From assembly GCA_016276965.1 (NCBI GenBank), contig JADNRU010000009.1:1-33446 (forward strand): a stretch of 33,446 bases of DNA, read 5' to 3'. Made by a program: the position numbers and the translations under genes. The notes below the pieces were generated by a model, which worked only from the letters and a program-made list of their open reading frames with translations, had not been told where the DNA came from and did not search any database. This stretch comes from Nitrosopumilales archaeon (GTDB lineage: Archaea; Thermoproteota; Nitrososphaeria; Nitrososphaerales; Nitrosopumilaceae). Each line of letters begins with the position of its first letter. The stretch's first letter is position 1. Shown here piece after piece: positions 26,357 to 30,900 of the stretch.

Positions 26357-27139
26357 TCAAATCTTTACTTGCATACCCTCTTGTGCTTTTACAATATATT
26401 TATCACGAATTTTTACACTTGCCCAATCAATTAGTAATACCGTAATTAACACTACTAACATGAAAACAGCTGCTTTACCATATTCAAAGAATTTTATGTA
26501 GTTTATTATGTAAAAACCAATTCCTCCTGCTCCAACTAGACCAAGAATACTAGTTTGTCGTACATTGTAATCGAACATGTATAATATTTGACTAAGTAAA
26601 TGAGGTGCAGATTCTGGAACAACAACATGTCGTATTAATTGCCACTTAGAAACCCCTATGGAACTTACAGCTTCTACTGGATCTGAATCAATCGCCTCAA
26701 TTGATTCGTATTGTAATTTTGTAATAAAGCCTATAGTGTACATTATAATTGCGAGAATTCCTGCGAATGGCCCCAAACCTACCATTATTACAAATAAAAT
26801 TGCCCATAAAATAGAAGGAAAAGTTCTAGTGGCAGCAAGTAGTGCTCTTATAGGAACATAAACTAATTTTCTATTTAGGTTTCTTGCAGCAAGCATACTT
26901 AATGGAAGAGCAATTGCTACTCCAACCACTGTTCCAATAAATGCCATTTCAATTGTTTCCAGCATAGACCAAAAAGCTGTTCCAAACAAATCGAGTTCAA
27001 CTTCAGTCATTTCTTTTGCTACTATAGCTAAATTTGGAATTCCTTCAACAAATTCAACCGGATTTGCATCAATATTATAAGACATTGCAACAACGGCTGC
27101 AATTACTATTCCTATGATTAGATTATTCTTAGGATTCAT
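26357..27139 (-). CDS. phnE: phosphonate ABC transporter permease
   Basis: A 260-aa membrane protein with an N-terminal helix (NNLIIGIVIAAVVAM) and five further hydrophobic segments. The EAA-like loop for coupling to the ATPase is visible as EAVSSIGVSKWQLIRHVVVPESAPHLLSQ, and SILGLVGAGGIGFYIINYI is a PhnE hallmark. Its start overlaps the phnC stop by 11 nt, so translation is coupled. It is the last gene of the phnD-phnC-phnE unit. Whether the substrate is a phosphonate, phosphite or phosphate cannot be decided from sequence. Confidence 0.92.
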   Translation of the reverse strand: MNPKNNLIIGIVIAAVVAMSYNIDANPVEFVEGIPNLAIVAKEMTEVELDLFGTAFWSMLETIEMAFIGTVVGVAIALPLSMLAARNLNRKLVYVPIRALLAATRTFPSILWAILFVIMVGLGPFAGILAIIMYTIGFITKLQYESIEAIDSDPVEAVSSIGVSKWQLIRHVVVPESAPHLLSQILYMFDYNVRQTSILGLVGAGGIGFYIINYIKFFEYGKAAVFMLVVLITVLLIDWASVKIRDKYIVKAQEGMQVKI

Positions 27140-27968
27140 TAGTATTATAGAGCTCCAATATTTCTTGCTGGCTCGTATTGCCTGATTGAAAATCTACTAT
27201 CTTGTCTCCTTCTACTCCTAATTCTAAAATTTTTTGGCCTTCTTTTATCACGGCAACTCGATTCGCATATTTTAATCCAAGTTGTATATCATGGTGTACC
27301 ATCACTGCTGTTAGATTGAATTTTTTTTGAGCGTCTGCAATCAAATCCATAATCTCTCTAGCGGTTACATGATCTAATTCAGAAACAATTTCATCGGCAA
27401 GCAAGAGAACAGGTTTTTGCATTAAAGCTCTAGCAATTGCAACTCTTCTTTTTTCTCCTCCACTTAACATGTAGGTTTTTCTGTCTCTTTTACCTTCAAG
27501 CCCAACAAGATGTAGAATTTTTTCTGCTTCATTGATTTCATTTTGAGGAAAAATTTTGAAAAATGATTTAACTTTGCTAATTCTTGGTAATGCTCCAATT
27601 AGGATATTATCAATGACTGAAATGTTTTTTACTAATCCTAAATTTTGTGGAATGTAGCCTATTTTTGATAATGATTTTTTGAATTTATCATTCTTAGTGT
27701 TTGGGATTTGATAATCCACTCTGATTTGACCTTTGCTTGGAGTCATCATTCCATTAATAAGTTTGAGCAAAGTAGTTTTTCCAGAACCAGATTGACCTAC
27801 AATGGCATAATTGGTTCCACTGTTTATTGATAAGGTAATTTCTTTTAGAACATAATTTTTTGCATCGTATGAAGCCCAAACATCATTCATTTGAATTATA
27901 GTCTTAGTAGATATAGTTGATAAATTAGAAAAAGAGTGTGTTGATGATGCTTTTGAAAATAAGGTCAA
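27129..27968 (-). CDS. phnC: phosphonate ABC transporter ATPase
   Basis: An ABC ATPase of 279 aa with Walker A VGQSGSGKTTLLKLING, ABC signature LSGGEKRRVAIARAL and Walker B VLLLADEIVSELD, where the usual DEP is DEI. The H-loop is VHHDIQLGLKYANRV. The first 26 residues from the TTG start at 27968 (Ser/Thr-rich) are extra relative to typical PhnC. The inner ATG at 27890 (MNDVWASYD) is an alternative start. It follows phnD by 13 nt and precedes phnE with an overlap, as expected for one transporter operon. Confidence 0.93.
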   Translation of the reverse strand: MTLFSKASSTHSFSNLSTISTKTIIQMNDVWASYDAKNYVLKEITLSINSGTNYAIVGQSGSGKTTLLKLINGMMTPSKGQIRVDYQIPNTKNDKFKKSLSKIGYIPQNLGLVKNISVIDNILIGALPRISKVKSFFKIFPQNEINEAEKILHLVGLEGKRDRKTYMLSGGEKRRVAIARALMQKPVLLLADEIVSELDHVTAREIMDLIADAQKKFNLTAVMVHHDIQLGLKYANRVAVIKEGQKILELGVEGDKIVDFQSGNTSQQEILELYNTNES

Positions 27969-27981
27969 TAATTAGCCTCTC

Positions 27982-29064
27982 TTATTTTTGTGGATTATAC
28001 TTGTCTAGAATTTTTTGATCTAATCCAGTTAATGCATCAATATAATTTCCAAATTCACCAATATGCATTGTTGTAGTAGTAGGTAATAATGCATCAGCTC
28101 CATAGATGTCTTTTAAGATTTGATTATTTTCATCTTTATTTAATTCAAGCATTGCGTTAACTAGTAAAGTTTTAGTAGATTCGGACATGTCGGCACTAAC
28201 TACAAAGACATGTGAGGGAACAGGGCCAATTTGTTCTACAATTCTTAATTGTTTTTGTTGTTCAGGTGTGAGGTATTTTTGTGGTGCAATATCTGAACCA
28301 AACGCAACATCGACATTGTCATTAAGTAATAATTCCAATGCAGCTTTGTAACCTCCAGCAAAAGTATAAGATTCAAAAGTATCTTTTAATGCAGCTTCTA
28401 AGGCTACCAGATCATTTCCATTTAGGATAATATCTCCATTTGTGACGAGGATGCCCATTGGTCTAATGAAGCCTGAAGAACCAGTAATACTTGTAAATGC
28501 CACTCGTTTTCCTATAGTATCTTGTAATGAATTTATAGAATCATTATCGGTTTTTGCCCATACAGTTGCTTGATAGTTAACCTTGCCCTGTACAACTTCT
28601 GCAGCAACAACCTCAGCTCCAGAACGTTGATGTGCTATCCAACCAGGACCAGTATCCATAAAAGCTGCATCTATGTGGCCAAAGGTTAATCCTTCAATGA
28701 TTATTTCATAATTTGTTGGAACTACAATCTCTACGTCAGTGTGTAGTCTTTGTTCCAAAAACATTTCAAATTTTTCAGCTTTTGGGGTTAGCACGTTTGC
28801 TTTTTCAGTTGGAATAAATGCAATTGTTAGCTTTTCAATATTTTGTGTTAAAAGTTGGTTTCCTGAAACTTGTATGGTACCTTTTTCGATCAAATATTCT
28901 AATGCAGTTACAAATTCACTATCCGATATTTGATCATTTGCCCAAAACCCGGCAGTATTTTTTATCCAATTTGGAATCAATTCAGGGTTAGCTGAAGAAA
29001 TTGGAAAAGCAAAGATTCCTACTGCCAATCCAATGACAATTATGCCCAGGATTTTTGTTTTCAA
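27982..29064 (-). CDS. phnD: phosphonate-binding protein PhnD with N-terminal thaumarchaeal WIKNxAGxW module
   Basis: An extracellular solute-binding protein of 360 aa. The signal peptide is residues 1-25 (ILGIIVIGLAVGIFAFPISS). Residues about 29-66 form a module, IPNWIKNTAGFWANDQISDS and EFVTALEYLIEKGTIQV, found repeatedly in thaumarchaeal secreted proteins but not in bacterial PhnD. From about residue 75 the PhnD/phosphate-binding fold follows: LTIAFIPTEKANVLTP, IDAAFMDTGPGWIAHQ, AFTSITGSSGFIRPM and NVDVAFGSDIAP, with the Ser/Thr-rich ligand loop. The start is TTG, 28 nt from a TTTAAATAA box (leaderless). A 24-nt palindrome lies 17 nt further upstream. No lipobox Cys was seen, so the anchor is unknown; the module may serve. 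Confidence 0.9.
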   Translation of the reverse strand: MKTKILGIIVIGLAVGIFAFPISSANPELIPNWIKNTAGFWANDQISDSEFVTALEYLIEKGTIQVSGNQLLTQNIEKLTIAFIPTEKANVLTPKAEKFEMFLEQRLHTDVEIVVPTNYEIIIEGLTFGHIDAAFMDTGPGWIAHQRSGAEVVAAEVVQGKVNYQATVWAKTDNDSINSLQDTIGKRVAFTSITGSSGFIRPMGILVTNGDIILNGNDLVALEAALKDTFESYTFAGGYKAALELLLNDNVDVAFGSDIAPQKYLTPEQQKQLRIVEQIGPVPSHVFVVSADMSESTKTLLVNAMLELNKDENNQILKDIYGADALLPTTTTMHIGEFGNYIDALTGLDQKILDKYNPQK

Positions 29065-29087
29065 GATATGATTAGGATGAGCTAACG

Positions 29088-29096
29088 TTATTTAAA
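29088..29096 (-). promoter_or_regulatory. TATA box of phnD
   Basis: TTTAAATAA on the minus strand, 28 nt (centre) from the phnD start. It is identical to the box at 29887-29895 before the regulator pair. Confidence 0.6.
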
Positions 29097-29113
29097 CAAG
29101 AAACTCATTCTAA

Positions 29114-29137
29114 ATTCTGAGTCTAAAGATTTAGAAT
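29114..29137. promoter_or_regulatory. 24-nt palindromic operator upstream of phnD
   Basis: ATTCTGAGTCTAAAGATTTAGAAT. It matches 22 of 24 positions of the site at 29908-29931 and lies 17 nt upstream of the phnD TATA box. It overlaps the end of the upstream regulator gene. It is probably the binding site of one or both winged-helix proteins. Confidence 0.65.
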
Positions 29138-29514
29138 CAAAATAAGCTAGTATTTGATTTGGCCTGATATAGTTGACGTGTTTTTTCATTATTTGGATAC
29201 AGATTCAAAACGGGTTCTATTCCTCTAATTAAAATTTCAACCTGACCAATTCTGCTTTTATATTTTTTAATTTTTTTGCCTTCTGAAGAGATTATATATT
29301 TATCAACAGACACTAAAGCAAGATTCTCCAAATGAGAAAGCGTTTTGTAGACATTGGAAATTGATAATTTTAATTCTTCTGCAATTTGTGTGGCATCCTT
29401 TGCTTGAGTCAAAATAGAAAATAATACTGCTCTAGAACAGACGTTAGTTACTGATTCTATTATTTTCTGCGTTATGTTGTATTCATTTAGTTGTAAGACA
29501 TTAGGTTTTGACAT
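29137..29514 (-). CDS. winged-helix regulator, phn-associated (paralogue 2)
   Basis: A 125-aa protein with an ArsR/TrmB-like winged helix. ITQKIIESVTNVCSRAVLFSIL gives helix 1, ATQIAEELKLSISNVYKTLSHLENL the helix-turn-helix, and LVSVDKYIISSEGKKIKKYKSRI the wing. The C-terminal 40 residues are short and of unknown role. There are no cysteines in a metal motif. It is a paralogue of the next gene: they share the YDITQK/YNITQK start, the YK-L-HLE recognition helix and the KYKSRI/VYKSRI wing. It follows it by 18 nt and probably regulates phnDCE downstream through the shared palindrome. Confidence 0.82.
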   Translation of the reverse strand: MSKPNVLQLNEYNITQKIIESVTNVCSRAVLFSILTQAKDATQIAEELKLSISNVYKTLSHLENLALVSVDKYIISSEGKKIKKYKSRIGQVEILIRGIEPVLNLYPNNEKTRQLYQAKSNTSLF

Positions 29515-29532
29515 TTTCTCATAACACCGAAA

Positions 29533-29862
29533 TTAATTTGGAACTAAAACTAATGAAGGCTCAGGTTTTTTTATACTAATATTTGCTTTGCTAATTCTGC
29601 TTTTGTATACTTTGAATTTTCGTCCTTTATCTGAAATTAACCATTTCTCAACATAAATTAAAGTTAATTCTTCAAGATCCGATAATTTTTTGTAAACTGA
29701 ACTAAGTGGAATTTTATATTTTCCTGAAAGTTCTGCAGCTGTTTTGCCTTTTTTTATAATAGAAAACAAAATTGTTCTAGATTCTGCATCAGCTAATGCC
29801 TCAATAACTTTCTGAGTAATATCGTATTTTTTTAATTGTGGCAAAGTGAGTTTACGAGACAA
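29533..29862 (-). CDS. winged-helix regulator, phn-associated (paralogue 1)
   Basis: A 109-aa winged-helix protein. YDITQKVIEALADAESRTILF gives helix 1, AAELSGKYKIPLSSVYKKLS the helix-turn-helix, and YVEKWLISDKGRKFKVYKSRI the wing. It is smaller than its tandem paralogue at 29137-29514. The start is TTG at 29862, with a TTTAAATAA box 29 nt upstream (leaderless), and a 24-nt palindrome 12 nt upstream of the box. Two related regulators in tandem may work as a heterodimer. The signal they sense, perhaps phosphate, is not visible. Confidence 0.82.
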   Translation of the reverse strand: MSRKLTLPQLKKYDITQKVIEALADAESRTILFSIIKKGKTAAELSGKYKIPLSSVYKKLSDLEELTLIYVEKWLISDKGRKFKVYKSRISKANISIKKPEPSLVLVPN

Positions 29863-29886
29863 ATCTTTATACTGTTGGTATTTTAC

Positions 29887-29895
29887 TTATTTAAA
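29887..29895 (-). promoter_or_regulatory. TATA box of the winged-helix pair
   Basis: TTTAAATAA on the minus strand, 29 nt (centre) from the TTG at 29862. Confidence 0.55.
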
Positions 29896-29907
29896 TGAAA
29901 TGCTTTC

Positions 29908-29931
29908 ATTCTGATTCTATAGATTTAGAAT
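29908..29931. promoter_or_regulatory. 24-nt palindromic operator upstream of the winged-helix pair
   Basis: ATTCTGATTCTATAGATTTAGAAT is a near-perfect 24-nt palindrome (20 of 24 symmetric positions). It is the second copy of the site at 29114-29137 and lies 12 nt upstream of an identical TATA box. Confidence 0.65.
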
Positions 29932-29941
29932 TGAAGACTAA

Positions 29942-30673
29942 TTAATGAATTTCTGCTTTAACAGGTTTGTCTGGTTGGAATTTTTGCCAGAAAGCTCCAA
30001 ATATTATTCCTAATGCTATCCAAAATATTGAAACAGCAAAAACGGACATTATTCTAAATCCGTTTACCAAATCCATAGGTGCAGTTATCTCGTCAGGATT
30101 TTGTGGCATAATTATAAACACAGTACTCATGAAAACTGCGTATCCCAAGTAAGCGACAAATTTTTTGTTTTTTTGTAATCTCTTGTATAACTGATAAAAT
30201 CCTACAACCCCAAATCCAGAAATTGCAATAAATGCCAGATACAAAATTCCTCTAAGAACTACTGTTTCAGGGTCTCCAACAGTAGGAGGGTTTGCCGGAT
30301 ACTTCAAAAATGGAATAAAATAGATTGTAAACCACATTATTCCTGAAAGAAAGATTGCTTTTCTTGCATTTGATGAACCAGGTAACACATTTTTTGAAAA
30401 TACAAAAACAATTCCAAATAAAGCACCGAAAGAGGTACCCAATATTGCACCTGCTAGAATTTGACCACCTTTTTGCCAATATCGATAATTGTTATACTCA
30501 ACCCAAAATTGTGGAGAATCCACTTCTTCGCCGGAAGCGAATAAATTTTGATTTTCTATACCTATTGCCTCATCTAGATATGGTTCTACAATTGCAAGAT
30601 TTGCAAGACCGTGTATCATACCTGCAAAACATCCTGAAACTAAAACAAGTATAAGAAAAAGTACAGTTTTCAT
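29942..30673 (-). CDS. cbtA: cobalt transporter subunit CbtA
   Basis: A 243-aa membrane protein. An N-terminal helix with a glycine-rich turn (ILVLVSGCFAGMIHGLANL) precedes an extracellular charged loop, a second helix (QILAGAILGTSFGALFGIVF), and at least three more. CbtA proteins with about five helices and this N-terminal motif are predicted cobalt (B12-linked) transporters, paired with CbtB. The gene starts 11 nt after cbtB and is the second of a two-gene operon. The assignment rests on the paired layout and family resemblance; transport has not been shown by anything here. Residues before the first helix are absent, so no cleavable signal is expected. Confidence 0.8.
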   Translation of the reverse strand: MKTVLFLILVLVSGCFAGMIHGLANLAIVEPYLDEAIGIENQNLFASGEEVDSPQFWVEYNNYRYWQKGGQILAGAILGTSFGALFGIVFVFSKNVLPGSSNARKAIFLSGIMWFTIYFIPFLKYPANPPTVGDPETVVLRGILYLAFIAISGFGVVGFYQLYKRLQKNKKFVAYLGYAVFMSTVFIIMPQNPDEITAPMDLVNGFRIMSVFAVSIFWIALGIIFGAFWQKFQPDKPVKAEIH

Positions 30674-30684
30674 TTTTTTTTCAC

Positions 30685-30900
30685 CTAATGACAGGGAAAA
30701 CCTGCAGCGTGTCTCATATCATGTGTTAATTCATGAATCCAGAGTTCATCAAATGCTTCCTGTCCTAAAACAATGCTAAACAAATGACCTTGATCATAGC
30801 CTACCGTAAATAAACCAAATCCAAAAATTACTGCCAAAATAGCTATTGCCAATATCGGGGTTTTCGATTTTGAAATGGTTATTTCTCTAGCCGAAGGCAT
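30685..30900 (-). CDS. cbtB: cobalt transporter subunit CbtB
   Basis: A 71-aa protein with one membrane helix (ILAIAILAVIFGFGLFTVGY) and a C-terminal metal-binding-looking tail, ELWIHELTHDMRHAAGFPCH, the diagnostic CbtB motif with its clustered histidines and Cys. The ATG is about 25 nt from a CTTAAATAA box (30921-30929), supporting a leaderless start. In bacteria cbtAB is often controlled by a cobalamin riboswitch; none was seen here, and the short 5' end leaves no room for one. Confidence 0.82.
   Translation of the reverse strand: MPSAREITISKSKTPILAIAILAVIFGFGLFTVGYDQGHLFSIVLGQEAFDELWIHELTHDMRHAAGFPCH

Follow-up and report, generated by a model that had tools for sequence, protein, structure and literature searches.

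The closest described counterparts of the locus examined here are the PhnDCE/PtxABC importers, the DtxR/IdeR/MntR regulons of bacteria and archaea with their iron- or manganese-dependent repressors, and the small winged-helix (wHTH) regulators of archaea. In characterised PhnD and PtxB proteins, the oxygens of the ligand are held by an STS-H motif (Bisson et al. 2017, PMC5700983). Ammonia-oxidising archaea (AOA) are without C-P lyase, and their phnCDE genes may carry another substrate or have no function (Qin et al. 2020, PMC7490402). From Nitrosopumilus maritimus, no Fe-specific transporter is known (Shafiee 2019, PMC6776035; Shafiee 2021, PMC9723733).

We analysed a stretch of 33,446 nucleotides from a member of the Nitrosopumilaceae (the window), whose genome assembly (G000) is 1.17 Mb in size and 85% complete. 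It carries phnDCE genes beside two regulator genes, here called regA and regB. The earlier note had read this arrangement as a self-contained regulon in which the regulators act on their own promoter and on a phosphonate transporter. The link between site, regulators and phnD stands, on firmer ground than the earlier note had given it. The phosphonate theme is not supported, and phosphonate is probably the wrong label for the regulon, or a secondary one at best. We consider it likely that the locus belongs to an iron-homeostasis regulon of the Nitrosopumilaceae, with RegA as the putative binder of the palindrome described below.

The palindrome upstream of regA and phnD

Both phnD and regA are preceded by a 24-nucleotide palindrome. 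The first, ATTCTGAGTCTAAAGATTTAGAAT (29114..29137, no strand assigned), is a putative operator of phnDCE. The second, ATTCTGATTCTATAGATTTAGAAT (29908..29931, no strand assigned), lies in the regA promoter, comprises two overlapping copies of ATTCT-N8-AGAAT, and is a putative operator for RegA and perhaps RegB. As the earlier note had described, the two sequences are identical at 22 of 24 positions and both are symmetric; its coordinates are exact as well. The TATA box TTTAAATAA follows 17 nucleotides downstream of the palindrome at phnD (29088..29096, minus strand) and 12 nucleotides downstream at regA (29887..29895, minus strand), and is succeeded by a TTG start codon (29064 for phnD and 29862 for regA), again as claimed. 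Orthologs carry ATG, TTG or GTG at the same position. The placement of the sites upstream of TATA, which had been noticed at these two genes, is kept across the whole family Nitrosopumilaceae.

The core of the palindrome, which the earlier note did not single out, is the 18-mer ATTCT-N8-AGAAT, and the 24-mer is composed of two such 18-mers at an offset of 6 bp, a doubled layout that would suit two dimers. In 100 dinucleotide shuffles, there were 0 chance matches to the 24-mers.

The regulators RegA and RegB

The regA gene (29533..29862, minus strand) codes for a winged-helix regulator of 109 amino acids that has zero cysteines and begins at the TTG codon. The adjacent regB gene (29137..29514, minus strand) codes for a protein of 125 amino acids. 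That the two are tandem paralogous wHTH proteins, as had been proposed, is borne out by their 48% identity (E 1e-32). A model of moderate confidence suggests an ArsR-like wHTH fold for RegA. All matches of RegA and RegB to curated profiles lie under cut-off, including those to Pfam TrmB (21 and 19.7 versus 25.6), Sta1 (23.7 versus 80), Lrs14 (18.9 versus 90) and HTH_5 (18.7 versus 22), and solved structures yielded no significant match in a profile search with RegA. Weak PADLOC matches to Csa3/CARF wHTH proteins were rejected as generic winged-helix similarity.

A homologue of the regulator is present in 94 of the 96 good genomes of the family. Close RegA orthologs occur only in Nitrosopumilaceae; weaker relatives are found in neighbouring families of the same order, and among the listed genomes there are no RegA matches in other orders.

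The link between the regulators and phnDCE finds its best support in G009 (locus L100), where a single site lies in the divergent promoter between regA and phnD. There, regA stands alone with no regB adjoining, which makes RegA the minimal candidate binder of the palindrome. This assignment is read from the sequence, and the palindrome is also found at unlinked genes, so a factor encoded elsewhere might bind it, with RegA and RegB as mere members of the regulon. We judge this alternative unlikely, because the site holds an autoregulatory position upstream of regA in 86 of 88 loci (scores of at least 9/10 for the 18-mer core, compared with about 4% of shuffles) and because genera with a single regulator retain it in the interval that separates regA from the transporter gene (L076, L077, L100).

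An exchangeable transporter slot

The genes are arranged in the order cbtB-cbtA-regA-regB, followed by a variable slot. In the window, the conserved upstream neighbours cbtA and cbtB occupy 29942..30673 and 30685..30900, both on the minus strand. Among 88 loci, the slot holds PhnDCE in 49, the iron permease FTR1 in 18 and a ZIP transporter in 4, and is empty or cut off in the remaining 17; none of the 88 carries two slot transporters. All three slot types occur within genus g14. In genera g6 and g9, a lone regA and the ZIP gene diverge from a common promoter region. Pfam matches have E-values of 1e-15 to 1e-17 for FTR1, 1e-8 for ZIP (just below cut-off) and 1e-22 for the ferritin-like protein encountered below. 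Some FTR1 loci have an additional gene before FTR1 for an exported protein of 519 amino acids. This protein (L063 4181-5740), from a family without assignment, is possibly an outer partner of FTR1; in several genomes its gene separates regB from FTR1.

A tree of 100 loci, built from neighbouring genes by a quick method, implies at least 11 changes of the slot transporter; it replaced an earlier tree on PurP and CbtA that dropped most FTR1 loci. Across 30 genomes, FTR1 is present in 11 and the PhnD type of the window in 14, with both in only one (P = 0.002, uncorrected for kinship). The exchange of PhnDCE, FTR1 and ZIP under conserved regulators and a conserved site points to a role of the 'phosphonate' transporter in iron nutrition.

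The site accompanies these transporters. The 18-mer core scores at least 9/10 in 42 of 45 phnD promoters and 10/10 in all 14 FTR1 slot promoters, and ZIP slot promoters match it at only 9/10 or 7/10 and are without the DtxR-like box described below. For FTR1 genes away from the locus, a perfect ATTCT-N8-AGAAT is found upstream in G019 and G011, and a perfect site was looked for and found absent at such copies in G013 and G030.

Distribution of the palindrome

The earlier note had proposed a genome scan for the motif. It proves to be uncommon in G000, where the consensus RTTCYNRNTCYNNRGANYNRGAAY has 5 perfect matches, each located upstream of a gene, and its reversed pattern has 0. Besides the sites before regA and phnD, these precede a YciI-like gene (C7:3393) and a gene for a 60-amino-acid Zn-ribbon protein (C31:4260), and a tfb gene and a ferritin-like gene flank the promoter region that contains the fifth (C38:537). 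Two further sites with one mismatch each lie before sufC (C13:10304) and at another tfb/ferritin-like pair (C10:31495). These additional sites do not support a self-contained regulon. The genes on C10 and C38 are similar, and one set may come from a related strain within the assembly.

Across 46 genomes, 34 perfect 24-mers were found, compared with 1 for the reversed control, and 26 of the 34 are at the regA locus. Other perfect copies are found at tfb (two further genera), at YciI (G012) and at a Zn-ribbon gene (G073). In G079 (L085 3820-4782), a perfect 24-mer precedes a gene for an exported protein of 320 amino acids without a Pfam match.

These distributions bear on whether RegA, RegB and phnDCE might form a regulon responsive to phosphonate or phosphate, as the annotation of phnDCE and its conserved linkage to regA and regB would imply. 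We regard this as very improbable. The same regulators and sites, hence the same cassette, occur with FTR1 or ZIP in genomes without phnDCE, and sufC as well as the tfb/ferritin-side promoter carry sites. In G000 (85% complete), not one of the 7 sites with 0-1 mismatch is at phosphate uptake genes, and the second box described below recurs at Fe-S assembly genes. As the main reading, a phosphonate regulon is rejected on the evidence from the slot.

A second, DtxR-like box

A further conserved element, TTAGCTCATCCTAA (29072..29085, minus strand), was overlooked by the earlier note. It lies between the TATA box and the start codon, where it covers the point at which phnD transcription presumably begins. 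Its general form, TTAGCTN3CCTAA, resembles the DtxR/IdeR box. Scores of at least 9/10 are reached in 41 of 45 phnD promoters (shuffles 1.7%), and the element is present between TATA and start in 10 of 14 FTR1 slot promoters. In G005, G008 and G058, the divergent ZIP promoter carries it as well. The same box is found beside the sufC TATA box in seven genomes (G000, G012, G009, G046, G030, G032 and G018) and, in G008, ahead of sufB. Most tfb promoters have the variant TTAGCTN3CCTAC at a similar place, with 23 of 30 scoring at least 9/10. Taken alone, TTAGSNNNNSCTAA shows no genome-wide enrichment over its reversed control and is therefore unable to define a regulon, so the case for the DtxR-like box is an argument from position and conservation.

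A DtxR-family gene scores above cut-off in all 18 genomes tested. In G046 (L147, C1:1033500-1037500; L148), TTAGCCTAGGCTAA comes directly after such a gene, along with a multicopper oxidase/ZIP-like gene pair, an arrangement that occurs twice. In G032 (L149), the box TTAGCCTAGGCTAA precedes the orthologous multicopper oxidase/ZIP-like pair.

Iron is the most likely metal of the RegA regulon. Points against this reading are the missing genome-wide enrichment of the box, the FTR1 copies of G013 and G030 that have no perfect site, the imperfect site and absent box of ZIP slot promoters, the resemblance of PhnD to phosphite and phosphonate binders, and the annotation of the cbtAB neighbours as cobalt transport genes. 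Mn, Zn, Co or Cu might be the metal instead, since ZIP transporters are unspecific, cbtAB is annotated for cobalt, and a DtxR-family gene adjoins multicopper oxidase/ZIP-like genes. Such a regulon seems improbable to us given that FTR1 is an iron permease family and that SUF and ferritin genes are iron genes.

The tfb and Zn-ribbon genes

The promoter of one tfb paralog (71-100% identity between genera) is conserved and contains the palindrome together with TTAGCTN3CCTAC (upstream regions L265-L290, and C10:31608 and C38:649 in G000). In some relatives, the tfb promoter has lost the palindrome and kept the TTAGCTN3CCTAC box. The conserved paralog is a candidate for a dedicated TFB for metal stress and, with this tfb gene within the regulon, the regulon targets may use a dedicated TFB.

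Zn-ribbon proteins of 50-60 amino acids (MRIDSCKKCG...) form a family with several copies per genome, some of which adjoin the palindrome or tfb (C31:4364, C10:31226 and C38:309 in G000; L295-L324). The gene for a second PhnD-like binding protein (L086 1203-2123) stands directly before a sensor histidine kinase gene, close to a Zn-ribbon gene that has a perfect palindrome; this binding protein perhaps serves as a ligand sensor.

The PhnDCE transporter and its substrate

The phnD gene (27982..29064, minus strand) codes for a substrate-binding protein of family PF12974 (144 bits, cut-off 27). It is followed by phnC (27129..27968, minus strand), coding for an ABC ATPase whose true start is probably 10-15 codons downstream, where the ortholog alignment begins, and by phnE (26357..27139, minus strand), coding for an ABC permease that passes TIGR01097 (255.8 bits, cut-off 216.7). 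PhnD passes the wider subfamily TIGR01098 (129.7 versus 112 bits) and fails the PhnD equivalog TIGR03431 (98.6 versus 261.1 bits). Its nearest solved structures are PtxB and PhnD, which bind phosphite and phosphonates. The STS-H motif is absent from AOA PhnDs, which instead have GSS at 195-197 and G238/Y239, all invariant or nearly so, with the position of the His based on alignment. The GSS sequence retains two of the three STS hydroxyls. The structure model of PhnD is poor (mean pLDDT 58). The N-terminal part of PhnD (27982-29064), at about residues 30-70, contains the module PxWIKNxAGxWAxxxISDxxF, which is also seen in other exported proteins of Thaumarchaeota (L083, L084, L148).

Work on the N. 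maritimus proteome by Shafiee and colleagues in 2022 is said to have found the Phn transporter up under Fe limitation. That PhnDCE itself carries iron is a real possibility, which we put somewhat short of an even chance. We propose with the same caution that the AOA PhnDCE might be an importer of Fe(III) or an Fe chelate, and so the missing iron uptake system of Nitrosopumilus, under the control of a new RegA/RegB operator, a DtxR-type repressor and a dedicated TFB.

The regulon might also respond to iron while the cargo of PhnDCE is a phosphorus compound (phosphonate or phosphite) required under iron scarcity, for example because an iron-dependent step of phosphonate synthesis fails or because surface sugars bearing phosphonate bind iron. 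The same colleagues reportedly put forward a hypothesis of this kind, and the nearest solved relatives of PhnD together with the PhnE score above the equivalog cut-off are in its favour. We hold this possible yet rather doubtful, in view of the one-for-one exchange with the metal transporters FTR1 and ZIP in the slot, the replacement of STS-H by GSS-Y, and the absence of C-P lyase in AOA (PMC7490402).

A model for regulation

In the iron-homeostasis regulon that we favour, RegA and its duplicate RegB would bind the palindrome and control their own gene together with a metal, most likely iron, regulon. The main target would be one interchangeable uptake system beside the regulators, namely PhnDCE in the window and FTR1 or ZIP in relatives. 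Archaeal activators act upstream of BRE/TATA, and RegA dimers on the palindrome at this position would most likely set or boost expression. However, both activation and repression by RegA are possible because TFB might instead be hindered by a site 12-17 nucleotides above TATA. At the phnD or FTR1 start, the second box would probably be occupied by a DtxR-type metal-dependent repressor, which would keep the transporter off with ample iron and release it when iron falls. Further members of the regulon would be the dedicated TFB, sufC and the Zn-ribbon gene.

Implications

AOA drive ocean nitrification and can be iron-limited. Two puzzles, why N. maritimus has no recognised iron-specific transporter and what AOA phnCDE carries, are linked by the replacement of one transporter by another in the slot (PhnDCE, FTR1 or ZIP), by the operator that these have in common and by the changed binding motif. 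In marine and soil AOA alike, a conserved regulator pair and DNA site are tied to one chromosomal slot, and an archaeal iron regulon with its own TFB is proposed. If PhnDCE does import iron, AOA 'phosphonate uptake' genes in ocean surveys would be iron genes, and caution would be warranted before AOA phnCDE in metagenomes is taken as phosphonate use.

Comparison with known systems

The AOA transporter is like PhnDCE/PtxABC importers in its PF12974 binding protein, its ATPase and permease of the same families, and a PhnE above the equivalog cut-off. It differs from them in a binding protein that lacks STS-H and falls under the PhnD equivalog cut-off, in a promoter architecture common to an iron permease, and in the absence, according to the literature, of C-P lyase from AOA.

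With small archaeal wHTH regulators (TrmB, ArsR-like and Lrs14/Sta1), RegA and RegB share a winged-helix fold and a size of about 110 amino acids, and the fold search gave ArsR-like neighbours. Unlike these, they fall under all curated cut-offs and form a tandem pair tied to a transporter slot, and RegA is without cysteines.

The locus resembles the DtxR/IdeR/MntR regulons in having a putative TTAGG-N4-CCTAA-like box over the starts of uptake genes, in its proposed membership of uptake systems, ferritin-side and SUF genes, and in the presence of a DtxR-family gene in every genome tested. As judged from its consensus, however, the putative box differs from the bacterial DtxR box. The locus also departs from those regulons in combining this box with another putative operator of unrelated sequence, the 24-bp doubled form of ATTCT-N8-AGAAT, and in its lineage-specific tandem wHTH pair.
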